Virus record (IMG/VR): IMGVR_UViG_3300021091_000163
Span: 1-40,421 of that record
DNA from: a virus
DNA length: 40,421 nucleotides
Strand: one strand, 5' to 3'
Shown: in pieces, positions 8,463 to 28,178 of the stretch
Layout of the letters: the number at the start of each line of letters is the position of its first letter
Numbering within the stretch: position 1 is the first letter of the stretch
Program-made: the position numbers and the translations under genes
The notes under the pieces: model-generated
What the model was told of the DNA's origin: nothing
What the model saw: only the letters and a program-made list of their open reading frames with translations
The model's database searches: none

Positions 8463-9248
8463 TTATTTCCGTTTATTTCTATCATTTATAAATTCTCGCT
8501 TACTATTAGAGTATTCAGCAGATAATAATTTTATATTTCTAACATTTGTTAAATTTTGTATATCCATATTATCTCTAAATCTAATTACATCGGCCCACAT
8601 TCTTAATTCGTTAACTGTTTCTATTCCGCATAAATTTAATAACCGCATTGTAACGTATTCATTTCTATATTTAAATTCGTGATCTTCTAATAAAAAAGTT
8701 TCTACCGCAGACTTCCAATTTTTTATTATGCAATTCCTAGCAGCTCTGTTTATGCACATTACTTGTGTAGACATCAAACTTTTATTGTTATCTACTTGAT
8801 TGCAGTAAATTGTGGGAATTTCATCAACAGTATATCTTGAGAGTGTTTCAGCAACTAATTGTGTATTAGAAGAAAAGATTAAATCTGTAGTAATAAAAAC
8901 ATCAAAATCACAATCTATATCTGATAACGATTTTGCCAACGTGATAAAATATTCGCAAGGAAATAAATGTATTATAGTAGTATTCTTATAATCTAAATAT
9001 TCTTCCGGATTTTCTTCTAATAATTTAAAATCATTAATCCAGGATATTCTACCTATATCTAATGCAATATCATCTAATGATTTTTCCTTAATACTGTGTT
9101 TTGCTTTAAAGGTTCCTTTCCAGGTTTCTTTTATAAACGGTATTAATGTACAAGAAATATTTTTTGCACCTTCAACAATTACCCTATGATTTTTAATACA
9201 CTCATAGTACCGCAATTGACCTATGTATTTTACAGAAAATGTATTCAT
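8463..9248 (-). CDS. Unknown protein, possibly glycosyltransferase-like, 261 aa
   Basis: This is the last gene of the leftward radical SAM/transferase operon. I do not recognise a family with certainty. The pattern FDVFITTDLIFSSNTQ (about residues 114-129), a hydrophobic strand ending in an acidic residue followed by another hydrophobic patch, resembles the metal-binding strand of GT-A glycosyltransferases but with TTD instead of DxD. Later MRLLNLCGIETVNEL and MWADVIRFRD are conserved-looking. The ATG at 9248 shares one base with the stop of the upstream radical SAM gene, so translation is coupled. A substrate-binding or glycan-related role is an inference from context. Confidence 0.45.
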   Translation of the reverse strand: MNTFSVKYIGQLRYYECIKNHRVIVEGAKNISCTLIPFIKETWKGTFKAKHSIKEKSLDDIALDIGRISWINDFKLLEENPEEYLDYKNTTIIHLFPCEYFITLAKSLSDIDCDFDVFITTDLIFSSNTQLVAETLSRYTVDEIPTIYCNQVDNNKSLMSTQVMCINRAARNCIIKNWKSAVETFLLEDHEFKYRNEYVTMRLLNLCGIETVNELRMWADVIRFRDNMDIQNLTNVRNIKLLSAEYSNSKREFINDRNKRK

Positions 9249-10462
9249 TAATGATCTGTTTTATAAATTCTATCAATAGAACTAACCTGTCCGCAGGTTT
9301 CTGCACAATAATACATTTTACCATCAGCTATTGATTTTTTAGACCAGCTATCAACAAATATATTATCGAGATGGTTTGAATCTAATATTTCTTTTAATGT
9401 ATGATTTTTTAAACTTAATTTATCATATCCGTATTTTTTAACTTCGTGATGAAGTTGTAATGTTGTTAAATCGCCGTACAGACCGTTCATTCTTGTACCA
9501 ACATAACAGCAAGGCATTACATTTCCGTAATTGTCGATAAAAATCTCTATCCCAGAATTAACTCTGCTTTTGCAATTAATAGAACAAGAATCAAATTTAG
9601 ATAAGTCTTGAATTTTTATAGAATCATACACAGAAGTATATTGTTTCTTATGGTATTGTAATAACGATTTAGCATTATCCTTTTTCATTTCAGCATATTC
9701 TTCTTTGGTAAAAGGCCAGAATCTGTGTTCTGTAATTCCTTGTGGATTTTGTAAATTTCTATTTTCCGGATCTGTTGGTGCTTCAATTATATAATCAAGC
9801 TGGCCTTCTTTATTTAATGCCACCATCGGTTGTAGCTTAACACCGTTATCTACACCTAATGCTCGTTTAGGAAGAAATTTAGAAAAATTCATTTTTTTAG
9901 CTAATGCTTCTGCTTCTTCTATCTGATGCTCATTATGCTTGAACATTAAATATTCCCATCTTGCATTTGCTCCGGTTGAAGTAAATGCACTAGCATTTGC
10001 CATTAACTTATCCCATTTAACATTTCGTCTATATATGTGGTTAGTGTCTTCTAATCCATCTATACTAAATGTTACCCAATGTTCGGACCAATGCTTTAAT
10101 AAATTTCCTAACTTAACCCAGAATTTCGGATTTCGCATCCCACCATTTGTATTAAATCTAATTTTTGTTTTAGGACTACTTGTTATAATATATTCTACGA
10201 TTTCTAATACATCTGCAGAAATACAAGGATCACCGTGTACTCCACAAAATATAATTAAATCAATTTGTTTTAAAAATTCAGGGCTTAACCAACTTTTAAA
10301 TTGTTTTTCGGAAATTTCACCTAATTCTAAATCAGGACGAAGCAATGGACTATTATTATAAAACCTAACACACATAGGGCAGGCAGCATTACATCTATTT
10401 GTTAATTCTATATGTAATTGTGTTATGCCGTTATAGTTATAAAACGCTGAAGTGTTTTCCAT
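9248..10462 (-). CDS. Radical SAM/SPASM protein, 404 aa
   Basis: The radical SAM cluster motif C24-x3-C28-x2-C31 (TNRCNAACPMC) lies at the N-terminus. A canonical C-terminal SPASM-type region follows: C293, C297-x15-G313-x4-C318 (IDNYGNVMPCC), then C386-x3-C390. SPASM enzymes use SAM-derived radicals with extra 4Fe-4S clusters to modify peptides, proteins or sugars. The SAM-binding Gly motif appears as CGVHGDP (73-79) instead of GGEP. The start is uncertain: ATG 10462 gives a 26-nt overlap with the upstream gene, while ATG 10507 would add 15 residues and a 71-nt overlap; neither has a strong ribosome site. This is the only one of the four radical SAM proteins here with the classical domain order. 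Confidence 0.8.
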   Translation of the reverse strand: MENTSAFYNYNGITQLHIELTNRCNAACPMCVRFYNNSPLLRPDLELGEISEKQFKSWLSPEFLKQIDLIIFCGVHGDPCISADVLEIVEYIITSSPKTKIRFNTNGGMRNPKFWVKLGNLLKHWSEHWVTFSIDGLEDTNHIYRRNVKWDKLMANASAFTSTGANARWEYLMFKHNEHQIEEAEALAKKMNFSKFLPKRALGVDNGVKLQPMVALNKEGQLDYIIEAPTDPENRNLQNPQGITEHRFWPFTKEEYAEMKKDNAKSLLQYHKKQYTSVYDSIKIQDLSKFDSCSINCKSRVNSGIEIFIDNYGNVMPCCYVGTRMNGLYGDLTTLQLHHEVKKYGYDKLSLKNHTLKEILDSNHLDNIFVDSWSKKSIADGKMYYCAETCGQVSSIDRIYKTDH

Positions 10463-11642
10463 ATTCTTTAAATGTTTCGTAAAAATTTTGAGATCGATAA
10501 TCATCACTTTGTTTAGTTTTTGTTAAGAACAGATGAAAATCAGATTTGCTGTGATTTTTTAAATTCATAAATGCTACAACTCCGGGAATGTGTTGCCAGG
10601 CCGTTGTATATTCTTTAGAGACTGATTCTAATTTTTCTTTTACTGCGGCTTTGATGTGGTCCGGCAATATAGAAATGTTATGATGCATAGGTCCGTGTAC
10701 TAAGTTAAGATACATACCCATATCTTTAGAAAAATGTTTTTCGTAAAATTCAATAGTCTCTGGGGCATCAAAAATATTTGCAGCACTTAATGTAATACAC
10801 CAGCTCATATTAATATTTCCGTACTCTTTCCCAATCTCCACAAATTTATTCATATTAGATAATACTTCTTCCCACTTAGCAGGATATCTCATATATTCAA
10901 ACTTGTCGCCAATTCCATCTATAGAAAAACTTAAATTAATTTGTCTAAAATTTTTCCACACTTTCATATCTTCTAGTGGCAAATGGGTTCCGTTAGTATT
11001 GTAGTGTAGTTCTATATTTTTAGAAACTCCAATGCTATCAGCCACTCTTAATAGTTCCCACATTTTCTTGCTCATAAACGGTTCGCCGCCATAAAAGTCA
11101 AACTGGCGAATCTGCGGTAATTGCGTTTTTAATTCTTCCCAAAACGGACTATCATCAGCATACGACTGATGGAATTTTTTCATTGTAGCAGCATACTCTT
11201 TATAAGAATATAAATTTAATTTATTAGTTTCATAATCTTCTTTCATCCACCCAGAACTAATGCTAGGACTACAAGTTCTGCAAGATAGATTACAGTTGTT
11301 TCCTAAATTTAATTCAAAATATGCTAATCCGTTATATGGTTCGTTCTTAAAAATGTATTTTTGATATTTGTCGTTGTCACGCATTCTCTTACTAGTTCTG
11401 CCAGAATCTTCTTCGTTCCAACATAATCTACAATTTTTATGTCTAATACCATTTTCAAGATCATTTCGTACATTAACAAATTCAGTTTTATTTAGATGTG
11501 ACTCAATCGATTCTTGCCCTAATGCAGGGCCGTAACTTTCCGGAGAGTACATACAACACAATTTTGTAGTACCATCATTATTTCCACTAAGTGCGTGAAA
11601 CGCATTTACACACCAACTGTGTTTATTGTTTTCATTTATCAT
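10437..11642 (-). CDS. Radical SAM protein with N-terminal twitch/SPASM-like cluster, 401 aa
   Basis: The radical SAM motif is C117-x3-C121-x2-C124 (CNLSCRTC), with YGGEPF at 184-189 and SFSIDGIGDKFEYMR as the later strand. Before the core, residues 11-74 carry C11-x12-G24-x4-C29-C30 and C71-x2-C74 (NCRLCW): the cysteine pattern of a SPASM/twitch auxiliary cluster, placed N-terminally. The C-terminus has DDYRSQNFYETFKEYG, resembling a DRRxxTNFLExFP motif in the next two proteins. It overlaps the gene upstream by 11 nt and the one downstream by 26 nt. The family is the group usually annotated as twitch-domain radical SAM proteins; the substrate is unknown. Confidence 0.8.
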   Translation of the reverse strand: MINENNKHSWCVNAFHALSGNNDGTTKLCCMYSPESYGPALGQESIESHLNKTEFVNVRNDLENGIRHKNCRLCWNEEDSGRTSKRMRDNDKYQKYIFKNEPYNGLAYFELNLGNNCNLSCRTCSPSISSGWMKEDYETNKLNLYSYKEYAATMKKFHQSYADDSPFWEELKTQLPQIRQFDFYGGEPFMSKKMWELLRVADSIGVSKNIELHYNTNGTHLPLEDMKVWKNFRQINLSFSIDGIGDKFEYMRYPAKWEEVLSNMNKFVEIGKEYGNINMSWCITLSAANIFDAPETIEFYEKHFSKDMGMYLNLVHGPMHHNISILPDHIKAAVKEKLESVSKEYTTAWQHIPGVVAFMNLKNHSKSDFHLFLTKTKQSDDYRSQNFYETFKEYGKHFSVL

Positions 11643-12987
11643 AATTTTCGTATGTATCTTTACAGAGATTATAAAACTCTGTGTATTCAGGAAAGATGTC
11701 TAATAAATTTGTTTCGAGTCTACGATCGTTTTCTGTAAAGAAACTATAAAAATCTCGTCTGCCTTGACGAATTTTCGTCGGGTCAACAGGATTTTCTTTC
11801 ATATAGTTTGTAACACGTTTAAATTTTTCGTATTCTACATCCTCAAACCATTCACTATTGTCTTGTATAAATTGAAGTGTATCGTCCATATGGTAGATAA
11901 AGTCTTCGGTAAGAATATTAATCATCCAGTGAGGTGGTTCTTTTAGATAAGGAGTATCAAATCTGATTGCTTTTTTGCCAAACTCTTTACGCCATTCTAT
12001 AATTTTTTCTAATAACAATTTAAAATTTGTAACACACAAAACATTAAACGTACACATAAAATTAACTGTTGTGCCAGTGGCTAGCACAGCTCGCATATTT
12101 CTTTCCCAGTGAGCACAATCTAATCCTGTACGCATATATTCTGCTTGTTTACCCCAAGAATCTATACTAGTGAAAAAACTAAATTTACGGATTTTCTTTT
12201 TTTGAATTAAGGATGTAACACGCTCGATTAATCTATCCACTTTAGCAAAAGATACTCCTAAATTACTATTAAGACTAATTTCTAATTGAGGCGATGGTTC
12301 ATTTTCGAGAAGATCAAAAAATTGCATAGCACCCGGATTCATTAAAGGTTCTCCACCGGTTATCCTTAGTGTATGCAAGTCATTCTTTAAACTCGGCCAC
12401 CAACGCCAAAATGCTTCTATATAAGGATTTTCTTCCTTGGGTGCATAGTATGTTCCAGATTTTAAAAATTCTATACCGTATTGGTTGTAAGTTAAATCAT
12501 AGTTACCATGTTTTTTAATTTCTTCCATCCACATAGTGCTAGCCTGTGGACAGCAATATCCGCAGCGATAATTACAGCCATTGCCGAAACTAACTTCTAG
12601 ATATCTAGGATTTATAGGTGCGTCCCACGGAAGCTCTGCAATCTGTTCAATAATAGGTTCGCTAAATGTGCTAGAACTATGCAACATTCTATCTGAAAAA
12701 TGTTCGCCTTCTAGATCTTCAATATTCCAACAGTAGTAACATTCTTGAGGTCGTTCACCTTCAAGCATTTTTTTACGTTGTTCTTTCTTCCATTTAGTAT
12801 TATGTAATGAGCTAACATCAATTGCTATTTCATCAAGATCAATATGATGGGGCCTCGGATGGTAACAACTATGATTATCTCCTGTGTGCAGGTATAAGGT
12901 TTGATGTAACCACTTCATTGTGCAAAAACTAGGACTAACAGCGTTAAGTCTATCTCTGACATTTTTTATATGTTGAATTCTATCCAT
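11632..12987 (-). CDS. Radical SAM protein with N-terminal twitch/SPASM-like cluster, 451 aa
   Basis: The N-terminal auxiliary-cluster signature is C22-x13-G36-x4-C41, then C83-x2-C86 (ECYYCW). Between them stands HNTKWKKEQRKKMLEGERP, a very basic, highly conserved stretch shared with the next paralog. The radical SAM motif is C138-x3-C142-x2-C145 (CNYRCGYC) with an extra C146, and TGGEPLM follows at 210-216. The C-terminus contains FFTENDRRLETNLLDIFP. CYHPRPHHIDL (41-51) is His-rich and could bind metal or substrate. It overlaps both neighbours by 8-11 nt. The substrate is unknown; protein or glycan modification is the family-level expectation. Confidence 0.8.
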   Translation of the reverse strand: MDRIQHIKNVRDRLNAVSPSFCTMKWLHQTLYLHTGDNHSCYHPRPHHIDLDEIAIDVSSLHNTKWKKEQRKKMLEGERPQECYYCWNIEDLEGEHFSDRMLHSSSTFSEPIIEQIAELPWDAPINPRYLEVSFGNGCNYRCGYCCPQASTMWMEEIKKHGNYDLTYNQYGIEFLKSGTYYAPKEENPYIEAFWRWWPSLKNDLHTLRITGGEPLMNPGAMQFFDLLENEPSPQLEISLNSNLGVSFAKVDRLIERVTSLIQKKKIRKFSFFTSIDSWGKQAEYMRTGLDCAHWERNMRAVLATGTTVNFMCTFNVLCVTNFKLLLEKIIEWRKEFGKKAIRFDTPYLKEPPHWMINILTEDFIYHMDDTLQFIQDNSEWFEDVEYEKFKRVTNYMKENPVDPTKIRQGRRDFYSFFTENDRRLETNLLDIFPEYTEFYNLCKDTYENYDK

Positions 12988-14395
12988 TTTGTTCTTTGCT
13001 TTTATTCCATAAAGTATTTAATGTTGGGAAGGTTTCTAAAAAGTTGGTTCCGCGTCTACGATCATGTTCCGAAAAATAAAGATAAAAGTTTTTTACAGCA
13101 ACGGTGTCGTTAAAAGTTGTAGAATTAATCCAGTCTATTAATCGTTGAACTTTACTAATTTCGTAATCTTTAAAACCTTTTAATCTAGTTAGTTCGGTCT
13201 CTTTATTTTGATTCATATATTCTATTGATTGTTCTAATACATAAACCATGTCCTTGGCCATTCTAGGATCCATCCATGCTGGACTAGTTAATTGAGGAAC
13301 ATCGAACCATATTAACTGTCTATTGGTATTAAACTCGCAGCGTAACAAATGAATGTTTTTTACATATTCTAGCCAACCAGGAAAACTTAAAACATTAAAA
13401 GTTACAATAAATGTTAAACTATGACGTTTTCCTTTACTTAAATATTCTCTAATATTTTTATCGAGTGTTTCGAAATTTAAACCGTCTCTAATATATTCTG
13501 CCTGGGATCCCCAACTATCTAAACTGCAAAATAACATAAAATGATCAATAGACTCAGTAACGCTGTTTAATTCTTTTATAAACTTGTTCCATTGTTCGCC
13601 GGGAGGACAACAGTTACTAGTAATACTTAGATGCAGATCTTTTTTAGGATTTGCCTTAATATAATCAAACATTCTAAATGTATTCTTATCCATTAGGGGT
13701 TCACCGCCTGTCATGCGAAAAGTTTGTAGTGTTGGATAAATCTGCGGCAACCATTGCCAAAAGGCCAATAGATAAGGATTATCTAGACTATTATTAGGCA
13801 TGGACTTATCTTTCATCCATGTAAGATCGTTATGATTTCTGTCTGTTAATTTAAAAGGTCCATTCCGTTCTATGTCTTGATGCCATGCAGTACTTAGATG
13901 AGGGCTACAATATGTACATCTAAAATTACAGGCCTGATTAAAATTTACCTCTACATATCTAGGGTTAGGATTTCCCTGATGTCCAATTGTCATTGCTTCT
14001 CTTATTAAGCCCGGTTTCCATACATCTAAACTTCGATATGGGCGATCACTTAAATTGTCTCCGCTATCCTCTATTTCCCAACAAAAATTACATTCTGAAG
14101 GTCTTTCACCGACCAACATTTTTTTACGTTGTTCTTTTTTATACTTTGTGTTATGCAGTGCGCTTACATCTATTTTTATTTCTTCTAAAGGAATATGATG
14201 ACTTCTGGGGTGGTAGCAACTGTGCGTTTGGCCTGTGGGTATGTGAATACTTACATTATACCATTTGGCTAGACAAAAGCTCGAACTAATTTTATTAAGT
14301 TCGGATAGCATTTTTTCCGATTTATGTAGATAGACCGATTCAAATTTTCCATCAATAATTTTTACTTCGTCTCCTGCTATATTTTTATCGGCCAT
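12980..14395 (-). CDS. Radical SAM protein with N-terminal twitch/SPASM-like cluster, paralog of 11632-12987, 471 aa
   Basis: The start is taken as ATG 14395; a TTG two codons upstream is less likely because GGAAAAG lies at a suitable distance before the ATG. The N-terminal signature is C41-x13-G55-x4-C60, then C102-x2-C105 (ECNFCW), with the same HNTKYKKEQRKKMLVGERP stretch as its neighbour. The radical SAM motif is C156-x3-C160-x2-C163 (CNFRCTYC), and TGGEPLM follows at 229-235. A near-C-terminal FSEHDRRRGTNFLETFP is shared as well. The strong similarity over the whole length shows that these two genes arose by duplication. They may act as a pair or on two related sites. Confidence 0.8.
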   Translation of the reverse strand: MADKNIAGDEVKIIDGKFESVYLHKSEKMLSELNKISSSFCLAKWYNVSIHIPTGQTHSCYHPRSHHIPLEEIKIDVSALHNTKYKKEQRKKMLVGERPSECNFCWEIEDSGDNLSDRPYRSLDVWKPGLIREAMTIGHQGNPNPRYVEVNFNQACNFRCTYCSPHLSTAWHQDIERNGPFKLTDRNHNDLTWMKDKSMPNNSLDNPYLLAFWQWLPQIYPTLQTFRMTGGEPLMDKNTFRMFDYIKANPKKDLHLSITSNCCPPGEQWNKFIKELNSVTESIDHFMLFCSLDSWGSQAEYIRDGLNFETLDKNIREYLSKGKRHSLTFIVTFNVLSFPGWLEYVKNIHLLRCEFNTNRQLIWFDVPQLTSPAWMDPRMAKDMVYVLEQSIEYMNQNKETELTRLKGFKDYEISKVQRLIDWINSTTFNDTVAVKNFYLYFSEHDRRRGTNFLETFPTLNTLWNKSKEQNG

Positions 14396-15452
14396 TTTCA
14401 AACTTTTCCTGTAACCAATTAAAGTCGTTTATCTTAGATAATGCCTCCAAATTTCCAATATTTTCTTCTCCATATTTTTTCCCTTCGATGGCTCCATCTA
14501 TAGCATATTCTCCGTACTTGTTTTCTATTCCGTCATTACACCAAACTTTTAATCTTTGATCAGTTTCTTCGTCGTAATATCTGTCTATGACATTACTAGA
14601 TAATTTTACACATTCTCTGAATGCACTTCTCCAGGTACTGAATGGATCAGTATTAAATTGTGTAATATTACTGATCGAAGACATAACTTTAAATTTTTCG
14701 CTAATCGATGTCGTCATATCTGGTTTAGAAACATCCATCTGCAAGGTTAATGTTTTTGGTAATAATTTTACACCCCCATAACCATATACTAGTCCATTTA
14801 TAGGATTTTGACTTTTCCACACATGAACTGTTTCGTTAAAATTTTTCCTTTCTTGAAAATTATAATAAGGAATTTGAGGTATCTTAAAGTTAAAATTTTC
14901 TAAAATTACAGCATCTGCATCTACCACCCAAAACATTTCGGTCGTAGATTCCCTAGCCGCTTGAATATGTGCATTATGAATTCCTGTGATCCCATTTAAT
15001 CTTTTAGCATATGAAATTTTTGATTTTAAATTACTATAGTTTTCATCTGCATTTATTTCGTTATAAGAAATAAAAAATACATCAAATGGTTTAGGATTAC
15101 TGGCAATTATATCTATTTCTTTTTTTCCATTCACAAAAAATCTATTTAGAAATTCTTTGTTACTAAACGAATATGTGCGTGGAAACAAGGAAATTCCATC
15201 ATAGTATTCCCCGTTTTTATATACATGAATATATTCTTTATCCCATTCAGGAACTTGGTAGGTAAAATCAAAATCATTGACTACTATTAAATCACTCCAC
15301 ACTACCCAAAAAAACTTAGTAAAGGCTCTAGATTTTATTTGTTCAAAAGAAGTGATTGTTTCTAGTTTTTGAGATCTAGGAAATCTCTTTTTGAATTTAA
15401 ACCAATCATCGTCATTTATTTGAGATGTGCTAACGAAAAATATGTCATACAT
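14385..15452 (-). CDS. GT-A-type glycosyltransferase-like protein with tandem repeat, 355 aa
   Basis: The C-terminal two-thirds (residues 123-355) is a GT-A-like domain with FDVFFISYNEINADENY (123-139), AKRLNGITGIHNAH (149-162) and the DxD motif VVDADAVI (176-183; D178, D180). The first 120 residues repeat the same plan in weaker form: YDIFFVSTSQINDDDW (2-17) and FFWVVWSDLIVV (47-58), where WSD replaces DAD. So the protein looks like an internal duplication with an inactive first copy. GT-A enzymes use nucleotide sugars and a divalent metal. The second half is closely similar to the neighbouring 300-aa protein. The acceptor is unknown. Overlaps: 8 nt upstream, 11 nt downstream. Confidence 0.65.
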   Translation of the reverse strand: MYDIFFVSTSQINDDDWFKFKKRFPRSQKLETITSFEQIKSRAFTKFFWVVWSDLIVVNDFDFTYQVPEWDKEYIHVYKNGEYYDGISLFPRTYSFSNKEFLNRFFVNGKKEIDIIASNPKPFDVFFISYNEINADENYSNLKSKISYAKRLNGITGIHNAHIQAARESTTEMFWVVDADAVILENFNFKIPQIPYYNFQERKNFNETVHVWKSQNPINGLVYGYGGVKLLPKTLTLQMDVSKPDMTTSISEKFKVMSSISNITQFNTDPFSTWRSAFRECVKLSSNVIDRYYDEETDQRLKVWCNDGIENKYGEYAIDGAIEGKKYGEENIGNLEALSKINDFNWLQEKFENGR

Positions 15453-16347
15453 TTTTTAAATAGGTATTAGATAAGTTAATTGTTTCTATATAAAGATCTA
15501 AGGTATATTTACTTTGTTTTGCATCTAGCCAAGGCCAACTTAAACCTAGTTGTTGTTTAATTTCCCCTCCAAGATCTTTTATCGCATCTTCAAGTCCTTC
15601 ATCTTTTGATTCTTCATAAGGCTTTCCGTATTGATTCCATATTCCTCGCAATATCTCAAAATCTCTAACCTCTATATAATTCCAATCACTACAATTGGTC
15701 AACCATGTTCCTAATCTTGATCCATATACCGCATATAGACCATTTTCTTCATGTGCGCCCACAGTTGACCACATACGCAGTCTGTGAATATTATGCCACC
15801 ATATACGTTCTTTAATTTCCATAGGAGGAACTTTAACACCGTCTAACAGAGTCATTTTAACTCCTTCTCGGAATCCTGCTCGCCATGCCTGGAATGGTGA
15901 ACCAGTTACTATAGTTTCACTATAACACTCTTTAAATTGTCTATATCCGTTTTCCCAACAAAAATCTACCTGAGCTCGATCACTTTCGCTGGCTTCATGA
16001 GTTTTCATATTCAGGACAAAATCTTTTTTCCAAATTTTTAGGCCGCCGTTTCCGTACAATAAACCGTTGATTTTATTCCTGCCTAACCAACTATAAACCT
16101 GAATATCGGGATCTGATGTATCTAATTCTAAATTAAAAAATCTAGTATCTACAACATTATCTGCATCTACAGTAATAAACCAATTTGTTTCACTTAATTT
16201 AGCCGCTTCTTTGTGAGCAGCATCTGATCCTTTGACTCCGTGAACACGTTTTGCCCAAGGTACTTTATTGCATAAATCAGCATAATGCAAATCTGCATTA
16301 GGTTCGTCATAACTTAAGAATATTATGTCTAGTTCAATCGTTTTCAT
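15445..16347 (-). CDS. GT-A-type glycosyltransferase-like protein, 300 aa
   Basis: The N-terminal strand LDIIFLSYDEPNAD (residues 6-19), AKRVHGVKGSDAAHKEAAKL (32-51) and the DxD motif ITVDADNVVD (58-67; D61, D63) define a GT-A-like nucleotide-sugar transferase fold. I recognise this YDEPNAD / GSDAAH / DADN pattern from proteins of unknown role in T4-like marine phages. WRAGFREGVKM (about 155-165) is shared with the tandem paralog downstream (WRSAFRECVKL). The C-terminal part is Trp-rich (SWPWLD). There is no signal or membrane segment. It overlaps the upstream gene by 14 nt and the downstream gene by 8 nt. Confidence 0.65.
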   Translation of the reverse strand: MKTIELDIIFLSYDEPNADLHYADLCNKVPWAKRVHGVKGSDAAHKEAAKLSETNWFITVDADNVVDTRFFNLELDTSDPDIQVYSWLGRNKINGLLYGNGGLKIWKKDFVLNMKTHEASESDRAQVDFCWENGYRQFKECYSETIVTGSPFQAWRAGFREGVKMTLLDGVKVPPMEIKERIWWHNIHRLRMWSTVGAHEENGLYAVYGSRLGTWLTNCSDWNYIEVRDFEILRGIWNQYGKPYEESKDEGLEDAIKDLGGEIKQQLGLSWPWLDAKQSKYTLDLYIETINLSNTYLKNV

Positions 16348-16912
16348 CGTGAAAAATATAATTTTTAAAAAGTCTTCTAGTATAGATACTAAATTTTTTT
16401 ATTTCTGGCAGATTTTCTACATGATCTTTTTCAATTAATTTACTGATCTTTACTGTAAAGATATTGTACAGTGTATGAGGATCGTTATATTCTGTAATAA
16501 AAAAATCCATTTCAGTTTCGCCGTTCCAAAATATTTTTTTACCGTTTCGATACTTTTCATGTAAAGTAATTACAATTTTATTATTTTGATTTAAGATAAC
16601 AATATCGGGGTCAACAACACTCGACCATTTAGATCCTATTACTCTATGCAATACATCATCTATTTTTGTTAAAGATTTCACTTCTACTATTTCAAATTTA
16701 CCATCATCTAAATCTACAAAGCAATTAAAAATAGAAGTGATTCCATTGGCTATTGACTCTGCAATCTCTTGATCAATTTCTACTTTGTATTTTACATTGA
16801 CAGCCGAATCTCCTGGATATATTCCTGTGACTTTTCCGGATTCAGGATCATATCCGGCCCAGTATTGAATTTTAATTTGCTGAGGTATTTTAATCCATTC
16901 ATCAAAATCCAT
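16334..16912 (-). CDS. Hypothetical protein, 192 aa
   Basis: I do not recognise a domain. The start chosen is ATG 16912, whose first base is the last base of the upstream TAA and which has GGAAGA at proper spacing; ATG 16924 is possible. A striking piece is IQYWAGYDPESGKVTGIYPG near the N-terminus, rich in Tyr, Gly and Asp, reminiscent of short repeats in phage structural proteins. The rest is beta-rich with many Asp and Lys. It lies between two transferase-like genes, so it could be the acceptor protein, a chaperone or an adaptor; none of these is shown. Confidence 0.6.
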   Translation of the reverse strand: MDFDEWIKIPQQIKIQYWAGYDPESGKVTGIYPGDSAVNVKYKVEIDQEIAESIANGITSIFNCFVDLDDGKFEIVEVKSLTKIDDVLHRVIGSKWSSVVDPDIVILNQNNKIVITLHEKYRNGKKIFWNGETEMDFFITEYNDPHTLYNIFTVKISKLIEKDHVENLPEIKKFSIYTRRLFKNYIFHDEND

Positions 16913-17751
16913 TAATTCTTCCATGCTATTTCCTCTAATATGCTTACAATTTCGTCGGTAATTAATTTCTTGTCAACATAATGTACAATACTATTTTGGT
17001 CATAATTTCCTATTTTTATATGACCATTATTCTTAAAATAAAAACCTACATGATCTGTCCACGAATCTGCCGGCCAAGGCCAATTTTGGATCATTGGTTT
17101 CATATGAATTACCTTAGGAAATTCTAGGTCGTAAGATATTTCATTTTCTATTCCTAAGATTTTTGCGCTAAGAGAAAAAGCTTCATCAGTACCTAACAAT
17201 TTAGGTTTATAGTCGGATAAAAATAAATTAGAAAATTCTATTGGGTTTTTTATAATGTGTCTACCTAATTCAAAAAATTCCTTGGCAAGGTTAGAATCTT
17301 TTTTGAAGAAAGTATAAAAACTATATAAATTTGGTAGATGATTTATTGTAAATGTTTTTCTATAAAAATCATCTATAATTGATTCCCCCCTATATGTGTA
17401 GGCTTTATTAGCAACATATAATTCGCAGTTTGTGACAAAATAGTCTATCCAATGACTGTAATCTTTAGTAAAAATCATATCTGCATCTAAACACACAGTA
17501 TTATCGAATGGAGAAAGCTGATCCATCCAAGATCTTCCATTCCAGAAGGTTTCTTGATCCCATTGTATAATATGATCAAAGACCCAAGGACTCTTTACTG
17601 ACGAGATCAATGATGGATTATCTATTACTAATGCTACATGACCGTATCCAGGTTTCTGAGTATTTTTAATACTAAGTGCGAGTGCATAGGCCATTTTTAA
17701 ATAATCAGTGTCTTTACTAGAGGACACAACAATCAAATATCCAAAATTCAT
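16912..17751 (-). CDS. GT-A/GT8-like glycosyltransferase, 279 aa
   Basis: The protein starts with FGYLIVVSSS and has AYALALSIKNTQK (21-33), the first strand/helix of nucleotide-sugar transferases, and the DxD motif VCLDADMIF (86-94; D89, D91). GTDEAFSLSAKILGI in the middle and VIHMKP / WPWPADSWTDH near the end match the acceptor-side region of GT8-like enzymes. GT8-type enzymes are retaining transferases that use UDP-sugars and manganese. There is no signal peptide. It overlaps the next upstream gene by 4 nt and shares one base of its stop with the downstream gene. Confidence 0.65.
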   Translation of the reverse strand: MNFGYLIVVSSSKDTDYLKMAYALALSIKNTQKPGYGHVALVIDNPSLISSVKSPWVFDHIIQWDQETFWNGRSWMDQLSPFDNTVCLDADMIFTKDYSHWIDYFVTNCELYVANKAYTYRGESIIDDFYRKTFTINHLPNLYSFYTFFKKDSNLAKEFFELGRHIIKNPIEFSNLFLSDYKPKLLGTDEAFSLSAKILGIENEISYDLEFPKVIHMKPMIQNWPWPADSWTDHVGFYFKNNGHIKIGNYDQNSIVHYVDKKLITDEIVSILEEIAWKN

Positions 17752-18608
17752 ATGATTTCTAAAAATTCCTTACTATTTCTTATAATGCTTTGCTTGTTCA
17801 TAATGTGTACATCTCTATCTCGGCTAGACATCGCTACAAATTTTTCCTCATTGACGCAATCACTAATTAAAAAAGTTAATGTTGATTCGTGAACCTTGAA
17901 CAATACATCCTTATCTATGATTGTATTAATCGGTGGTAAAGACCTTGATCCTATATCTTGGTATCCGTCTAATATGTGTTTAGCTATTGAAAATGCTATG
18001 TCGTTACGATATTGTAAAGGATTGAATCTATATAAATCTGCAAAATATTTGTAATTATTTTTTATATAATCAACTAAATTGAAAAATATTTGAGTATTTT
18101 TATTTTTCGTGAACATCACTGTAGTGGCCCAATACATGTGTATGCCCGTAGGGGATACATAACGATCTAAATAACCAACTCTGTCTCCTCCTATATCGTG
18201 CATAGAGTGTCCGATAAGAAGATCTTCTTCTACGTTCCAATATTGCGCTAGATTATCTGTAAAAACTAAAAAATCGCTGTCTATTACCAATGTTCTGTCA
18301 TACGGAGTTAAGTCCCATGCCGAATTTCGATTAGCATTTATGAAAGGAACTGTAGACGATTCTTTACCGTCATTTAATTTTCGATTGTTATTTGTGTGAG
18401 GACGTTCTGTTATAATTATATTGTCAAATACTATTTTAGCTTTGGGTAATGTTCCATACTCGCTCATCCATTCAACTGTAGAAGAATCTGTTACTAAACT
18501 TACAGGCACACTTAAATTTTTTTTTGCAAGCCCGCCAGAAATAATAGCAAGAAGACTATAGTCCACTTGTCGATTATTATGAGCAAAAATTAATATACCC
18601 GTATTCAT
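17748..18608 (-). CDS. GT-A-type glycosyltransferase-like protein, 286 aa
   Basis: The N-terminus (GILIFAHNNRQVDYSLLAII) and the first strand-helix unit resemble the neighbouring GT8-like protein. The DxD motif is LVIDSDFLVF (107-116; D110, D112). SPTGIHMYWATTVMFTKN and RNDIAFSIAKHIL (mid to C-terminal) fit the usual acceptor/donor loops with an Asp-Ile pair. Its 3' neighbour has the same layout, so the two are probable paralogs. It overlaps the first gene of the operon by 4 nt. The donor and acceptor are unknown. Confidence 0.65.
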   Translation of the reverse strand: MNTGILIFAHNNRQVDYSLLAIISGGLAKKNLSVPVSLVTDSSTVEWMSEYGTLPKAKIVFDNIIITERPHTNNNRKLNDGKESSTVPFINANRNSAWDLTPYDRTLVIDSDFLVFTDNLAQYWNVEEDLLIGHSMHDIGGDRVGYLDRYVSPTGIHMYWATTVMFTKNKNTQIFFNLVDYIKNNYKYFADLYRFNPLQYRNDIAFSIAKHILDGYQDIGSRSLPPINTIIDKDVLFKVHESTLTFLISDCVNEEKFVAMSSRDRDVHIMNKQSIIRNSKEFLEII

Positions 18609-18955
18609 AGATCTAATAGTTTTTCCACTGATCTAGATTTTTTTAATTTTTCATGCTGTTCATAATATTCGTAAACAGCAGAAAAATATCTATCTAATAT
18701 TTCTTCTTTAAAAGAATGCATACTATTAATTAAGATCGGAGTATCGTTGGAATCTAACAACGGCACATTTTCAATCCTACCATTATCGATCATAAACTGA
18801 ACAAAATTAATCAAAGAAATATTAATTTTAAATATTCCCCCGTTGCATCCATAGGTAAGTTTAGCATCAATCTTTTCTTTGAGCTGTTTACGTTGAAGGA
18901 CTAATGTTTGCCTATAATTTGAAAAATCTAAGGCTTGTTTGAGACGATCATCCAT
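18605..18955 (-). CDS. Conserved T4-like phage protein, first gene of the operon, 116 aa
   Basis: I recognise this family from T4-like phages of aquatic bacteria: DDRLKQALDFSNYRQTL at the start, KLTYGCNGGIFKIN in the middle and EKLKKSRSVEKLLDL at the end. No function is established. The protein is mostly helical with a central beta segment. ATG 18955 is preceded by AGGAG at 18961-18965, which lies within one arm of a perfect inverted repeat. Because this gene is first in the unit and broadly conserved, the transferase and radical SAM genes behind it look like an accessory cargo added downstream of a core phage gene. Confidence 0.75.
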   Translation of the reverse strand: MDDRLKQALDFSNYRQTLVLQRKQLKEKIDAKLTYGCNGGIFKINISLINFVQFMIDNGRIENVPLLDSNDTPILINSMHSFKEEILDRYFSAVYEYYEQHEKLKKSRSVEKLLDL

Positions 18956-18960
18956 GAGAA

Positions 18961-19004
18961 CTCCTATAAAATACGCACATTATTTATATGGTATTTTATA
19001 GGAG
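18961..19004 (-). promoter_or_regulatory. Perfect 14-bp inverted repeat enclosing a late promoter; RBS-sequestering hairpin
   Basis: Arms CTCCTATAAAATAC (18961-18974) and GTATTTTATAGGAG (18991-19004) are exact reverse complements with a 16-nt loop. On the leftward strand the downstream arm contains the Shine-Dalgarno TAGGAG of the 116-aa gene. In a transcript that reads through from the upstream structural genes, both arms are present and the hairpin would hide this site. No U-run follows on either strand, so it is not a standard terminator. Confidence 0.7.
18981..18988 (-). promoter_or_regulatory. Late promoter TATAAATA inside the hairpin loop
   Basis: The octamer is an exact match to the T4 late-promoter -10 element. 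By T4 spacing, transcription starts near 18975, the last loop base, so the RNA keeps only the downstream arm and its ribosome site is free. It would drive the whole unit from 18955 down to 8463. Confidence 0.65.
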
Positions 19005-19010
19005 TAGAAA

Positions 19011-19034
19011 AATTAACTGCCCGAAATAGGGCCT
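19011..19034 (-). terminator. Weak candidate terminator after the 300-aa structural gene
   Basis: On the leftward strand GCCC-TATTTC-GGGC spans the last codons and is followed by AGTTAATTTTT. The stem has only 4 G/C pairs, so efficiency is doubtful; some read-through into the hairpin region is expected. Confidence 0.35.
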
Positions 19035-19915
19035 ACCGTTGCTGATTGATAATTGGTTATACTAAAAGACCCGCCAGGAATCAACGATCCCGAAGCTCTA
19101 ACGGAATCTACAGATAATGTTAATATACCATCAACTAGATCCCCCGGTGGTGGGCTAGGTTCTGGACCTGGATCGAAATATCCATCGATCCAAGATACTC
19201 TAAAAGTTACTACGTTTGCAGTGCCGGACGAATTATTTGCTACATTACATAAGGCTTCTATTCTCCAAATATTTGCAGAATATGGACTACTGGCTGTTAG
19301 ATTATAGGCCGTCTGATACGAATTTGTTAGACTATAAAAATTGACACCGGGAGCATTACCTCCGAATGATCTAGTTCCAGATGCTGCTAACAAACTGCTC
19401 CAAGCAGAATTTTGAGCTGTACCGGTCCCGCCAGTTCTAGAACTTGAAAATCTTATTTGCCCACCGCTATTAAAAAAATATCTCGCTTGATCAGCAGTGT
19501 TAAAAGTAACGGTAACAGTAGAACTACATGATTGGTACCAACTGTCAGTAAAAGATTCAGATCCTATAATCTCAGTTACAAACTGTCCAGTTCCTAGATC
19601 AAATCTATTTGAAACAGCTTGATCAGCTAAAGTATCGTATTGGTTGTTAGGATTTCCCGCACCATAAGAAATTACACCTCCCACTGTGGGAACAAAAATT
19701 GCAGGGGCAGATCCAAGCTGGTGTAAGAGAGCATTATAAATATCGTATCGTAATGCATCCCATTGAGCTTTAGTCACAGTATTTCCTACAGAGACCAAAG
19801 TACTGAAAGTGGTTTGTCCGTAACCGCTGTTTCCTACGCCGGTTCCTATTACATTTATAATTTTACTACGAATTGTATTATAGTCTGTTGCAGAAATTAA
19901 ATCACCAATTGCCAT
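19013..19915 (-). CDS. Putative virion structural / tail fibre-associated protein, 300 aa
   Basis: The N-terminus (MAIGDLISATDYNTIRSKI, GNSGYGQTTFSTLVSVGN, VTKAQWDALRYDIYNALLHQ) is a module that I recognise at the start of structural proteins in T4-like aquatic phages. The rest is Ser/Thr/Gly/Asn-rich beta-structure, typical of fibre or decoration proteins, with a Pro-rich linker (DPGPEPSPPPGD) near residue 250 before a last small beta domain. AAGGAT just before ATG 19915 overlaps the stop of the upstream fibre gene, 9 bp away, so the two are co-transcribed. The exact position in the virion is unknown. Confidence 0.65.
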   Translation of the reverse strand: MAIGDLISATDYNTIRSKIINVIGTGVGNSGYGQTTFSTLVSVGNTVTKAQWDALRYDIYNALLHQLGSAPAIFVPTVGGVISYGAGNPNNQYDTLADQAVSNRFDLGTGQFVTEIIGSESFTDSWYQSCSSTVTVTFNTADQARYFFNSGGQIRFSSSRTGGTGTAQNSAWSSLLAASGTRSFGGNAPGVNFYSLTNSYQTAYNLTASSPYSANIWRIEALCNVANNSSGTANVVTFRVSWIDGYFDPGPEPSPPPGDLVDGILTLSVDSVRASGSLIPGGSFSITNYQSATVGPISGS

Positions 19916-19924
19916 GACATATCC

Positions 19925-21679
19925 TTATAGTACTATTGCCTCTATTGTTTTTACATCTGTGTTATCGTTGCTCTCTAACGCAATTGCAAAAACATCGTTA
20001 GCGTGTGGGACTGCCGCCACAGCCATACCGCCATTTGCTGCCACTAGACGTTGACCTTTTTTTATTGCTCCTACTACTTTTACTGGTACTCGACCTTTAA
20101 GTGCTATATATGTGCCGCCTATTAAATCTTTATTCATCATAAATGCAGGATTTGCACTGACTACACCAATTGCTTTATCTCCGTACTTAGCTGCGGTAAC
20201 TTCGGCACTACCACCAACAGCTACCACTGTTCCCGGTTCATAATCTTCATCTGTTAAATATTTTTCAGCTAGGTCTGCATATTGAGCCGCTGTCGCAGTC
20301 CCTTGAAACAGATTTGCCGATAAATTTCCCGAACTATCTCTAGCTGCTATCGAATTCGCTGCAATAATAGTTTTCGCCGATCTATAATTAACATCAGTAT
20401 CTACCGCTGCATTATCTATTTTCATTCTATCGGCTTTATCTGCAGTACCTATAAATCTATTAGCAGTGATGTTTGCCGAACTATCTCTTATAGCGATAGA
20501 TGTTGGCACCGCTCCTAATTCTCCGATTAAACTGTTTAATGTCAATGCATTAGTAGCTGTTCCTGTTACCGATCCAATAACGTTACCATTGAGCGTCCCG
20601 GAAAAACTTCCTAGGAAAGTTTTTGTTACGGCATTAAATGCCGTTGATTCATCTTCAGCGACTAGGTTACCGGTATGGTTTCCTGTTATATTACCTGTGA
20701 CATTACCGGTCAGTGCTCCTATAAATGTTGTAGCATGTATATTTGCATATTTGCTAGTAGAAGACCCAATGTTAAAAAAGTTATTTGCTCCAGGAAGAAT
20801 CGCTGTTGGTGTAAAAATAGCAACATTTCTCAAATCACTGTCTGTGATTCTGATACGCATAGTAATTGTATTACCAAGGCGGTTTTCAATTACAGGTTCA
20901 TCACCATTTTCAACTCTAAATCTAATATCGTTTTGATCACCTAAGACAAATCCAGAATCACTGAACGAAACTTCTTGTTCAAAGGATATTTCGCCAATTC
21001 TAATATAATCACTGGCTGGATATCCTCCTAATCTTGCAGCATTTGATGCTGTTCCCCAATAATAATGATCTGTGGAAGTGACACCTGTTGTACCGTTGGT
21101 ATTGACTAAATTTATACCCTTTTTGATTACACTGAAACCGGTAATAGGATTAATAACACTGTTTAGGGTAAAGGCATCCTTGCTGACTACTAACATAGTG
21201 TCGCCGCCGGAATTTATCTTTACGATTGTGTGATTGTTGTTAAGAGTATCTTTAACTACTTGCGCTATAATAGCCGAGGCTCCTAGATCTGGAGCAGTCT
21301 CGGGACCTATAAGAACAAATTCTACTCCATTCCATGCATATAATTGTTCTGCACTTGTGTCAAACCAAAAATCTCCAGTTTGAAGCCCGGACGGTGCCGT
21401 TGGACCTATTTCTGCACCGCTAGCAGTGCGAAATCTTGTACCATCATAAAATTTTAATTTTTTATTCCCGCTATCGTACCATATTTGTCCGGTAATAGCC
21501 TTTGGAGGTGCTGATGTATTTGAAAAATTTTCTAATAAATGTAAGAAATTTTCGTTTTGAACTTCACCGTAACCAGCATAATTTTTACCTAAAAAGCGGA
21601 GATCGGTGGTGGTATCGATAGTTCCGTCATCTACGGATACTAAAAAAGTTCCATTAAATCTATCTACTTGATATGCCAT
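19925..21679 (-). CDS. Tail fibre-like protein, paralog 1, 584 aa
   Basis: The first ~180 residues (MAYQVDRFNGTFLVSVDDGT, YGEVQNENFLHLLENF, ITGQIWYD, GDFWFDTSAEQLYAWNG) form the N-terminal domain shared by the next three genes, presumably the virion anchor. The middle has repeats of the TGNVTGNITGN type (about residues 318-335, and again near 355-370), a fibre-shaft signature. The last ~120 residues (AAQYADLAEKYLTDEDYEPG, GVVSANPAFMMN) form a C-terminal domain that resembles self-cleaving or chaperone domains of fibres (peptidase G2-like). RBS GGAG is 7 bases before the ATG. Paralog 2 shares this C-terminus; paralogs 3 and 4 do not. Confidence 0.75.
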   Translation of the reverse strand: MAYQVDRFNGTFLVSVDDGTIDTTTDLRFLGKNYAGYGEVQNENFLHLLENFSNTSAPPKAITGQIWYDSGNKKLKFYDGTRFRTASGAEIGPTAPSGLQTGDFWFDTSAEQLYAWNGVEFVLIGPETAPDLGASAIIAQVVKDTLNNNHTIVKINSGGDTMLVVSKDAFTLNSVINPITGFSVIKKGINLVNTNGTTGVTSTDHYYWGTASNAARLGGYPASDYIRIGEISFEQEVSFSDSGFVLGDQNDIRFRVENGDEPVIENRLGNTITMRIRITDSDLRNVAIFTPTAILPGANNFFNIGSSTSKYANIHATTFIGALTGNVTGNITGNHTGNLVAEDESTAFNAVTKTFLGSFSGTLNGNVIGSVTGTATNALTLNSLIGELGAVPTSIAIRDSSANITANRFIGTADKADRMKIDNAAVDTDVNYRSAKTIIAANSIAARDSSGNLSANLFQGTATAAQYADLAEKYLTDEDYEPGTVVAVGGSAEVTAAKYGDKAIGVVSANPAFMMNKDLIGGTYIALKGRVPVKVVGAIKKGQRLVAANGGMAVAAVPHANDVFAIALESNDNTDVKTIEAIVL

Positions 21680-21698
21680 CGATCAACTCCGTTATTGC

Positions 21699-21719
21699 TA
21701 TTATTTATCGTAAATAATA
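21699..21719 (-). promoter_or_regulatory. Late promoter candidate GATAAATA in a 9-bp palindrome
   Basis: The 44-bp gap between two fibre genes contains the arms TATTATTTA (21699-21707) and TAAATAATA (21711-21719) around TCG. On the leftward strand GATAAATA occupies 21709-21702. Transcription would start near 21696, leaving a ~17-nt leader with GGAG before ATG 21679. The palindrome does not cover the ribosome site. Confidence 0.5.
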
Positions 21720-21723
21720 TCTT

Positions 21724-23541
21724 TTAAATTCTACCTACAACTACCTCTATAAGCCCCGAATCACCATCAAAATCTTCTAAAGATTTTCCTAATATAGTAC
21801 CTATTTTAGGATCTGTAGTAGGTCTTGCGTATCCGTTGCCTCCACTAACTAGCATATCTCCTTTACGAATTCTTCCTCGAACTTTACAGGGGACTCTGCC
21901 TTGCAATGCTACAGCTACTACATGATTTCCTTGTAATTTACTATTCATTAGATGTGCTGGGTTGGTAGAAACAACACCTGCAATTTTTTTAGTTTCGTCT
22001 TCTGCTAGTGTAACTTCAAATTTACCACCAAATTCTAATACTGTTCCGGGTTCATAGTATGTATCTGCCAAATAATTTTCAGCTAAGTCGGCATATTGCG
22101 CCTGTGTTGCTGTACCTATAAAAAAGTTAGCGTAAACATTATTCCATTTTCTTGTGCTTATTCCTAGATTGGTAACTCCATTAGACTTAGGCAATAGGGA
22201 CGGAGCACTTAAACCACCTAAAGTTAATGCTTGTGTAGAATTTACTAATGCTATGTCAGTTTTGAGATTTGGCTGACTTAAGTCATTTATTTGTATTTTG
22301 ATAGTACCGGTCGTACCGCTTAAAACCGGTGTAACTCCAGTTTCTAATAAAGCCACAAACGGTGCCGAAGCAGAAGAAGGTCCTCCTATGGTAAAAGAGC
22401 CTCCTGAACTTATGTCTAAATTAGAAAGTGTACCTACTGTGGTAATGGCTGTTTCAACTACATTAGACGCTAAAACCGAACCTGTAATGCTAGATGCAGG
22501 CACTGGAACATTTATATTTGCTGTTCCGTCAAATAAAACTCCATTGATTGTTCTTGCATCTTGTAACTTGGTGGCTGTAAATGCATTTCCAGATAATGTT
22601 GCTCCAACAAATTCGTTGGCTTGCACGATATTAAAAATACTAGTGCCTGTAGAATTTACGTTTCCGCTTAGGTTACCTGATAAATTTGCTGTGATAGTAC
22701 CTGCAGAAAAATTTCCTGCACTATCTCTTGCTACTACTTTTCCGATTATATTATCTGGTGTAGCATCCACTGACCATGTTGTTGCTGACGATCCGTCAAA
22801 ATTAGTACCAGTTAAGTATACACCTCTAGATAAGATATTAGTAGTGCTAGATTTAATTGTTATGTTGTTAGCACCGTCAAAGAATACACCATTGATTAAA
22901 CGACCTGGATTCAAAATTGAAGCAGATGTTGAATTACCGATTAGACTTCCTGCAAAATTTCTTGTAGAAGCAACATTTATTCCAGGTTTTAATTCATCAT
23001 TAAAGCCTACAATAAAATTTGTAGGATTAATAACAAATTGTTCATTAGCACATATGGCTAACGTTGTACCGTCTACAACTAATTCTAATACTGCATGATT
23101 AACATTATTGCTGTCTAGCAAAGATCTTGCTCTTAATCTTGTTGTTCCTGCACCTTCTACAGCTTCTGGGCCAACTAATCTCCAAATACCGTCTCGATAA
23201 ACAAATAATTGATCCGTCGTACTCTTGTACCAAAGACCTCCATCGAACCCAGTAGGCTCTGAATTATCTACGATAGCTGTTCCTACAGGTCCCCATTCTT
23301 CTCCCGTATAGATATTCAGCGATTTTGTTAAAGTATTATACCATGTTTGTCCAGCAATAGGTCTGGAAGGCGGATCCTCATTAGCGAAATTTTCTAATAA
23401 AAATAAGAAATTTTCGTTTTGAACTTCACCGTATCCTACATAGTTGCGACCCAACAGGCCTATGCTGGTAGATGTATCTAGTGTTCCATCTTCAAGAACC
23501 ACTAACTGCTGACCGCTAAACCTGTTAATTACATATGCCAT
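21724..23541 (-). CDS. Tail fibre-like protein, paralog 2, 605 aa
   Basis: It has the same N-terminal domain as its neighbours (MAYVINRFSGQQLVVLEDGT, YGEVQNENFLFLLENF, PIAGQTWYN). The middle carries repeats of the type INGVFFDGANNITI and INGVLFDGTANINV, and a LSGNLSGNVNSTG shaft element, all common in phage fibres. The last ~130 residues (QAQYADLAENYLADTYYEPG, VVSTNPAHLMN, ALQGRVPCKVRGRIRKGDML) match the C-terminus of paralog 1 and may be a cleavable folding domain. AGGGAG precedes ATG 23541. A 29-bp stretch of identical DNA is shared with paralog 1 (about 21543-21571 and 23405-23433). Confidence 0.75.
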   Translation of the reverse strand: MAYVINRFSGQQLVVLEDGTLDTSTSIGLLGRNYVGYGEVQNENFLFLLENFANEDPPSRPIAGQTWYNTLTKSLNIYTGEEWGPVGTAIVDNSEPTGFDGGLWYKSTTDQLFVYRDGIWRLVGPEAVEGAGTTRLRARSLLDSNNVNHAVLELVVDGTTLAICANEQFVINPTNFIVGFNDELKPGINVASTRNFAGSLIGNSTSASILNPGRLINGVFFDGANNITIKSSTTNILSRGVYLTGTNFDGSSATTWSVDATPDNIIGKVVARDSAGNFSAGTITANLSGNLSGNVNSTGTSIFNIVQANEFVGATLSGNAFTATKLQDARTINGVLFDGTANINVPVPASSITGSVLASNVVETAITTVGTLSNLDISSGGSFTIGGPSSASAPFVALLETGVTPVLSGTTGTIKIQINDLSQPNLKTDIALVNSTQALTLGGLSAPSLLPKSNGVTNLGISTRKWNNVYANFFIGTATQAQYADLAENYLADTYYEPGTVLEFGGKFEVTLAEDETKKIAGVVSTNPAHLMNSKLQGNHVVAVALQGRVPCKVRGRIRKGDMLVSGGNGYARPTTDPKIGTILGKSLEDFDGDSGLIEVVVGRI

Positions 23542-23556
23542 TTGACGCTCCCTACA

Positions 23557-23564
23557 TATTTAAT
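23557..23564 (-). promoter_or_regulatory. Weak late-promoter-like octamer ATTAAATA
   Basis: In the 25-bp gap before ATG 23541, ATTAAATA differs at two positions from TATAAATA. The predicted RNA would begin at or just before GGGAG, leaving a leader of about 10 nt. The match is poor and could be chance in AT-rich DNA. Confidence 0.25.
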
Positions 23565-23566
23565 CA

Positions 23567-25405: not shown

Positions 25406-25416
25406 TTGCTTTTACC

Positions 25417-28170: not shown

Positions 28171-28178
28171 TATTTATT
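28171..28178 (-). promoter_or_regulatory. Late promoter AATAAATA with T4-like downstream TACTATT
   Basis: The leftward sequence AATAAATATACTATT is close to the T4 late consensus TATAAATACTATT. It overlaps the stop of the giant gene (TAA at 28174-28176), and transcription would start near 28165, inside the longer version of the next reading frame. It would drive the 216-aa gene and the fibre genes behind it. Confidence 0.5.

Follow-up and report, generated by a model that had tools for sequence, protein, structure and literature searches.

A candidate late glycan-building cassette of transferase-like and radical SAM genes in uncultivated aquatic phages

Results

Eleven overlapping genes behind a tail-fibre block

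The sequence analysed here (the window) is a 40.4-kb virus record. Eleven minus-strand ORFs run unbroken from 18955 to 8463, neighbours overlapping by 1–71 nt, so that the prediction of eleven leftward, end-to-end overlapping genes forming one unit holds. Their order is u116, GT286, GT279, u196, GT300, GT355, rS473, rS451, rS401, rS419 and g261 (Table 1); the products include three radical SAM proteins with an N-terminal twitch domain, a fourth radical SAM protein whose end is weakly SPASM-like, and four transferase-like proteins that form two pairs. A 57-nt gap lies ahead of u116, the first ORF. As rS419 overlaps rS401 by 71 nt, its true start may be downstream. Upstream of the cassette are a tail-fibre-like gene block (19925–27489) and a 4081-aa baseplate/virion ORF. 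The far side is occupied by a convergent block that includes exonuclease, QueE-like (3268–4125) and dCMP deaminase genes and in which no neck gene was recognised; the nucleotide-metabolism genes are on the strand opposite to the cassette.

Table 1. Features of the cassette and its leader in the window
Feature	Coordinates	Strand	Description	Basis
f300	19013..19915	-	probable virion protein, candidate acceptor	usual neighbour upstream of cassette
leader hairpin	18960..19005	-		late promoter at apex, Shine-Dalgarno in 3' arm
u116	18605..18955	-	small protein, function not assigned, first gene of unit	invariant upstream neighbour of GT286
GT286	17748..18608	-	GT8/glycogenin-like transferase, DSD motif	alignment; GT279 homology; sub-threshold glycogenin matches only
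GT279	16912..17751	-	GT8/glycogenin-like transferase, DAD motif	alignment; sub-threshold glycogenin matches only, best E 0.15
u196	16334..16924	-	conserved, function not assigned	alignment; constant place between GT279 and GT300
GT300	15445..16347	-	transferase-like, SYDEPNAD and VDADN motifs	motif counts; GT355 family
GT355	14385..15452	-	degenerate transferase half-copy (about 1–117), then intact GT-A-type domain	model, fold, length ladder
rS473	12980..14401	-	radical SAM, N-terminal twitch	NF033640 310.8 bits; motifs 45/45
rS451	11632..12987	-	radical SAM, N-terminal twitch	NF033640 299 bits; CxxxCxxC 60/60
rS401	10437..11642	-	radical SAM, N-terminal twitch	NF033640 308.1 bits
rS419	9248..10507	-	radical SAM without N-terminal twitch, weak C-terminal SPASM	profile matches
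g261	8463..9248	-	last ORF, outside conserved set, function not assigned	missing from 28/28 complete relatives

The original prediction described the 116-aa product as T4-like, which was not borne out: u116 had no PHROG match and no match among 50,697 isolated-phage records. The protein of no assigned function that was predicted at 192 aa is present, but it measures 196 aa from the first start codon; a structure search of its model (pLDDT 81.5, pTM 0.51) returned no significant match and did not identify it by fold. The last protein had been considered possibly transferase-like; profile comparisons gave g261 no transferase signal, and it also lies outside the conserved set. Ten cassette genes are under purifying selection (pN/pS 0.13–0.41, with synonymous sites near saturation), and g261 has a pN/pS of 0.75, measured against remote relatives. 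Purifying selection, together with a gene order kept in dozens of distinct loci, confirms that the operon is more than a chance arrangement.

Two pairs of transferases

Profile comparison of the four transferases (TRANSFERASES) resolved two pairs, since it joined GT286 with GT279 (98.8%) and GT300 with GT355 (hhalign, 100%), each as one family. GT286 and GT279 had been predicted to be DxD transferases of GT8 type. They carry the motifs, and among PDB profiles glycogenins were their sole matches up to E 1, but with best E values of 0.33 and 0.15, and no Pfam match was obtained at E 0.1 (PF01501 is GT8); both thus appear GT8-like, below threshold. Searches of the transferases against PHROG, Pfam and NCBIfam gave nothing significant. 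The two transferases predicted to be of the YDEPNAD type do belong together. YDEP and DxDN were present in 56/56 distinct GT300 members, and the DxD motif in 54/54 and 56/56 members for GT300/GT355. DxD motifs are kept in nearly all members of the transferase families.

Structure prediction, proposed earlier for the transferases, was made for GT355. In its model (pLDDT 86) the C-terminal domain is predicted to adopt a GT-A/nucleotidyltransferase fold (Z up to 11.1, rmsd 2.7, 128 aligned), and this model and the DxD counts together point to a GT-A fold with a DxD motif in GT300/GT355. The GT-A fold is common to nucleotidyltransferases as well, so the fold of GT355 alone does not establish activity. 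Matches that span the two domains of the model included Mimivirus R699 (Z 9.6, rmsd 10.8) and human COLGALT1 (Z 9.2, rmsd 14.5), values which indicate a different domain placement; the one-domain matches include a PBCV-1 capsid glycosyltransferase (Z 9.3). Like GT355, COLGALT1, LH3 and R699 have tandem GT-A-like domains that match both model domains, but at about 10% identity and with the domains placed otherwise (rmsd 10.8–14.5); unlike these proteins, the GT355 family carries 0–8 degenerate copies, in numbers that vary between close relatives. The idea of a collagen-type fibre acceptor, which these three proteins suggest, was rejected, as no G-X-Y run of at least 4 triplets was found in the window's fibre proteins tested; the only G-X-Y runs were of 18 residues, elsewhere in two relatives.

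A ladder of degenerate repeats in GT355

The lengths of GT355 relatives fall near 350, 452, 555, 660, 767, 874, 972 and 1084 aa. Each step of this ladder, which the original prediction had not noted, corresponds to one copy (about 101 aa) of the N-terminal half of the transferase, in which the DxD is changed to W-P/D-D/E/N; an intact VD[A/G]DA-type domain follows the degenerate copies. Among 94 distinct GT355 proteins, some of the short entries being fragments or distant members, there are 0–8 degenerate copies (about 101 aa per copy, r 0.96), and the window GT355 has one. Two phages with 98% identical GT300 proteins (L030 and L022) nevertheless have 4 and 8 GT355 copies.

These pseudo-transferase repeats would most likely dock or space the acceptor. 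A bolder proposal, which we regard as speculative and rather unlikely to be right as it stands, is that GT355 is a modular glycosyltransferase in which 0–8 catalytically dead modules, gained or lost whole between close relatives, dock or measure the acceptor for one live domain; the number of repeats would then set the site or the frequency of a radical-SAM-tailored sugar on the virion. The ladder is a natural length series for testing.

Three twitch radical SAM proteins and a fourth of another type

Membership of the N_Twi_rSAM family was tested with NCBIfam profile NF033640 (whole-protein score cut-off 170 bits). rS473, rS451 and rS401 passed this cut-off (scores in Table 1), in agreement with the three twitch-type proteins predicted. 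With 61.9 bits rS419 was under it; the match starts at profile position 104, the N-terminal part being missing. The assignment of one protein as a SPASM radical SAM enzyme stands in so far as rS419 is a radical SAM protein with a C-terminal SPASM match, but this match is weak. CxxxCxxC was present in all full-length relatives counted of the four families (45/45 for rS473, 60/60 for rS451, 63/63 and 32/32 for the others). One of the four proteins scored above the Pfam radical SAM cut-off and one level with it. Weak similarity to peptide maturases was detected for rS419 and rS401; peptides are often the substrate of twitch and SPASM radical SAM enzymes elsewhere. To our knowledge, phage twitch radical SAM proteins have as yet been assigned no function.

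A late promoter inside a predicted translation lock

The gap before u116 folds into a 20-bp hairpin (dG -23 kcal/mol, z -6.3), a feature that the original prediction had missed. An exact T4 late promoter, TATAAATA (18981–18988), spans its apex, and the Shine-Dalgarno AGGAG (18961–18965) lies within its 3' arm. Shuffled sequence contains the late motif, one mismatch allowed, at least as often as the window does, so the case for a late promoter rests on conservation and not on the motif alone: TAAATAW was found at -45 to -20 in 41/48 leaders of relatives and is rare before other cassette genes. The late promoter predicted for the operon is thus conserved in relatives, and it also appears to be part of a translation lock.

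The Shine-Dalgarno is paired across the promoter in 38/44 leaders. Leaders aligned by MAFFT are not aligned by structure; no pairs were counted from that alignment, and arm swapping took its place. Cognate arms had a mean of -15.5 kcal/mol compared with -10.2 for swapped arms (16 non-redundant clusters), and no permutation out of 10,000 matched this, which indicates covariation of the arms by compensatory change. Fibre-gene leaders with a late motif, taken as a control, have no such helix (mean z about 0, compared with -4.2). TAAATA was present in 24/24 leaders outside the discovery set, 16 of which had z below -2. The helix is weaker or shifted in a sub-group of leaders (L031/L134 type), and a clear lock is absent in four leaders. 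A gp55-like sigma factor is encoded in four related records; together with the conserved late lock, this suggests that the pathway is active during virion production.

In T4, late transcription begins a few bases past the late promoter element; a transcript of this kind would therefore not include the 5' arm of the hairpin. RNA reading through from the fibre genes would fold the leader and hide the ribosome site, and RNA begun at the apex promoter, being without the 5' arm, would be translated. The lock apparently acts as a late-only switch of the cassette and, because the downstream genes overlap, would probably govern the whole unit. The same design is found in T4 genes e, soc, 49 and I-TevI, in which the Shine-Dalgarno is locked in a hairpin of the read-through RNA (PMC3014915); in gene e a TATAAATA late promoter is within the region encoding the 5' strand (PMC3014915). 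The cassette leader has the gene e arrangement of a late promoter and a Shine-Dalgarno sequestered by an upstream arm. Unlike these T4 locks, it precedes a multi-gene enzyme unit, and it is known here from sequence.

A constant core and a variable add-on

IMG/VR searches with three queries returned 101 relatives of rS451, 491 of GT300 and 569 of GT286; contig counts include near-identical assemblies, and distinct-sequence counts were used where needed. The cassette is found in hundreds of uncultivated aquatic phage contigs, right behind tail-fibre genes. The core order u116-GT286-GT279-u196-GT300-GT355, that is, four transferase-like proteins and two small proteins of no assigned function, was invariant in 28/28 distinct intervals complete from u116 to c102 (the far flanking gene). 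These 28 intervals hold one to five recognised radical SAM genes each, of differing kinds. By these gene contents, the cassette is a constant transferase core with a variable radical SAM add-on. The set had been expected to travel together, and in these intervals the six core genes always do, in the same order, whereas the radical SAM genes vary and g261 is absent.

In 41 further distinct GT286 loci, u116 was upstream in 36/36 that had room for it and GT279 downstream in 39/39, and f300 mostly precedes u116-GT286-GT279. Contigs binned in marine MAGs have the same core order at 43–49% identity; we read them as phage, because f300 and u116 are also present. In records of 353, 199 and 188 kb (G013–G015), radical SAM genes above the cut-off are found close to the core. 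Conservation of GT300 and rS451 is strong (about 79–80% identity).

A DNA search with the 8–20 kb part of the window against isolated phages gave no match, and neither did protein searches of that collection, which may omit near relatives, with GT300, GT355, rS473, GT286 and u116. rS451 matched only Vibrio phages K566 and K567 among isolated phages (24% identity). Gp23, the T4-type capsid protein, was found in 4/5 related records searched; one of these, compared with isolates, had its nearest matches in the jumbo phages Phosso, Vibrio 2.275.O and PA5oct. In PA5oct, a similar fibre block has an f300 relative, gp360 (with an ESI-MS/MS note), as its last gene, followed by opposite-strand genes; no cassette is present at the site behind this f300 relative, so f300 does not always need the cassette, and PA5oct offers a natural comparison site. 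The moraphage lineage, which has four core glycosyltransferase groups (PMC12619734), was considered as the same lineage and rejected: according to its authors it does not belong to the T4 group, and radical SAM is absent from their text.

Discussion

The predicted fold, the DxD motifs and the neighbours in relatives make sugar chemistry the best-supported reading of the cassette. A DegT/StrS (sugar) aminotransferase adjoins a GT355 relative (L200), a carbamoyltransferase adjoins a radical SAM array (G004), a GDP-mannose dehydratase/epimerase lies within a second radical SAM cluster (G001) and a hexapeptide acyltransferase is present in L190; two actinobacterial GT355 homologues adjoin GT4-type transferases. 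Nucleotide sugars would be the sugar donors for GT286/GT279 and GT300/GT355, and the radical SAM enzymes would tailor the sugars by oxidation, deoxygenation, epimerisation or a C-linked change, a variable radical SAM set giving a lineage-specific glycan on a constant scaffold. We propose, at about even chances, that T4-like relatives of jumbo phages use the cassette, expressed late, to build a glycan, and that this pathway acts on the virion. The acceptor, of which we are less certain, would be a virion protein synthesised in the same phase, with a tail fibre or f300 the likeliest candidates. A dedicated modification pathway acting on the virion or on host glycans had been predicted; the co-travelling set, the late promoter and the sugar-type fold and neighbours speak for it, although the set is not uniform.

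The virion is favoured over the host surface by the late lock, by the place directly behind virion genes and by the conservation of the enzymes beside fast-changing fibres. Several observations run against our proposal: GT286 and GT279 reach GT8 only below threshold, the authors of the pelagimyophage study took comparable genes to modify the host O-chain (PMC7029224), twitch radical SAM enzymes act elsewhere often on peptides, the f300 relative of PA5oct exists without a cassette, and late timing is compatible with a host-surface role before lysis. The main rival, possible though on the unlikely side, is that the same enzymes act on the polysaccharide of the host surface (O-chain or capsule), so that further phages are blocked or released virions are kept off debris. 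GT8 genes in the pelagimyophage host recognition cluster have been read so (PMC7029224), and the kinds of neighbour seen (carbamoyltransferase, hexapeptide acyltransferase, sugar aminotransferase) typically go with surface polysaccharides; the lock, however, would delay expression to the late phase, too late against an early competitor, and the strong conservation of GT300 and rS451 contrasts with host surfaces, which usually vary.

That SPASM and twitch radical SAM enzymes often mature peptides, and that rS419 and rS401 weakly resemble peptide maturases, would fit a RiPP-like role: the radical SAM enzymes would introduce crosslinks or methyl groups straight into a peptide or a virion protein, and the peptide so changed would also be what the transferases glycosylate. 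We consider this improbable, because eleven overlapping ORFs leave no space for a precursor gene within the unit; the neighbours in relatives, moreover, are sugar enzymes and not peptidases or transporters. Very improbable, given the late timing, is a modification of phage DNA by the transferases and radical SAM enzymes: glycosylation of phage DNA is known, and the window also encodes the QueE-like protein and the dCMP deaminase, but DNA modification normally goes with replication, whereas the cassette follows virion genes as a late unit, opposite in strand to the nucleotide-metabolism genes.

Should our proposal hold, radical chemistry would supply the sugars with which a large group of uncultivated aquatic phages decorates its particles or hosts; the transferase core of this pathway has no match among the isolated phages searched, and phage twitch radical SAM proteins would gain a function.

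Some elements of the cassette are already known from other phages, namely many radical SAM genes in Campylobacter phages (PMC2853527) and radical SAM cassettes with GT8 in pelagimyophages (PMC7029224); of the fixed core, the late lock, the pseudo-transferase ladder and the constant/variable split, no description was found in the literature searched. The pelagimyophage host recognition cluster is hypervariable, lies between VrlC and gp14, and holds tail fibres, GT8-type glycosyltransferases and radical SAM cassettes (PMC7029224). Both regions are variable, with tail fibres, GT8-type (in the window, sub-threshold GT8-like) genes and radical SAM genes in T4-like aquatic phages, but the window cassette differs in its invariant transferase order, late lock and repeat ladder; in place of flanks from VrlC to the neck gene gp14, it has the giant baseplate/virion ORF on one side and the convergent block on the other. 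Campylobacter phages CP220 and CPt10 share with it multiple radical SAM genes, eleven and twelve, including an interchangeable module of five that holds a putative glycine amidinotransferase; 'glycosyl' is absent from the text of that paper (PMC2853527). A profile search found no glycine amidinotransferase in the window's unit; near the second cluster of G001 there was a weak arginine-deiminase-family match (E 0.0026, below cut-off). The cultured Vibrio phage K566 (OZ196521) resembles the cassette in that the rS401 profile matches four radical SAM proteins there. Two K566 proteins pass the Pfam cut-off for GT8, and a weak GT4-like match is also present; its 16.6-kb stretch differs in gene order and shows no match to the core transferase, u116, u196 and f300 profiles. 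The late lock predicts the timing of the pathway, and K566 provides a culturable comparison.

Cassette in bacterial contigs and radical SAM clusters elsewhere

The cassette, with its first gene u116 and the upstream virion-protein gene f300, was also found in public bacterial MAG contigs (L190-L195: PBPT01000016, NZHE01000008, NZHE01000012, NZGL01000008, JABGUH010000022 and NZVE01000006), which are probably phage contigs mis-grouped into bacterial genomes by binning. The genomes of cultured Parvibaculum, Micromonospora, Streptomyces and Nocardia (L199, L202, L204, L206) encode single-domain homologues of the transferase-like GT355, and GT4-type transferases adjoin two of the four.

A second radical SAM cluster of about 10 genes, unrelated to the cassette, was observed at about 230-262 kb in the related record G001 (IMGVR_UViG_3300042907_001080; L183-L185, L210). 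G004 carries an eight-gene radical SAM array at 98-110 kb (L211-L213), four genes of which belong to cassette family types; a carbamoyltransferase and a methyltransferase lie close by, and the transferase core was absent from the 57 kb read.

Other genes of the window

The QueE-like gene and its two neighbours suggest that 7-deazaguanine DNA modification is possible in this phage. The giant virion ORF may be incomplete, because it runs up to the end of the window.

Features in the window and in the second G001 cluster
Feature	Position	Strand	Remark
dCMP deaminase	window 2663-3112		adjoins QueE-like gene
QueE-like radical SAM protein	window 3268-4125	+	phrog_2076
Exonuclease-like gene	window 4562-5548		adjoins QueE-like gene
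Virion/baseplate ORF	window 28174-40419	-	4081 aa
GDP-mannose dehydratase/epimerase	G001, about 230-262 kb
2OG-Fe oxygenase	G001, about 230-262 kb
B12-binding radical SAM protein	G001, about 230-262 kb

A cultured phage with radical SAM and GT8 genes

Vibrio phage K566 (OZ196521; L294:4667-14134) has a pair of GT8 genes and one weak GT4-like gene together with four radical SAM genes, and a gene annotated PagP lies nearby; as a cultured phage with this combination, it offers a tractable model.
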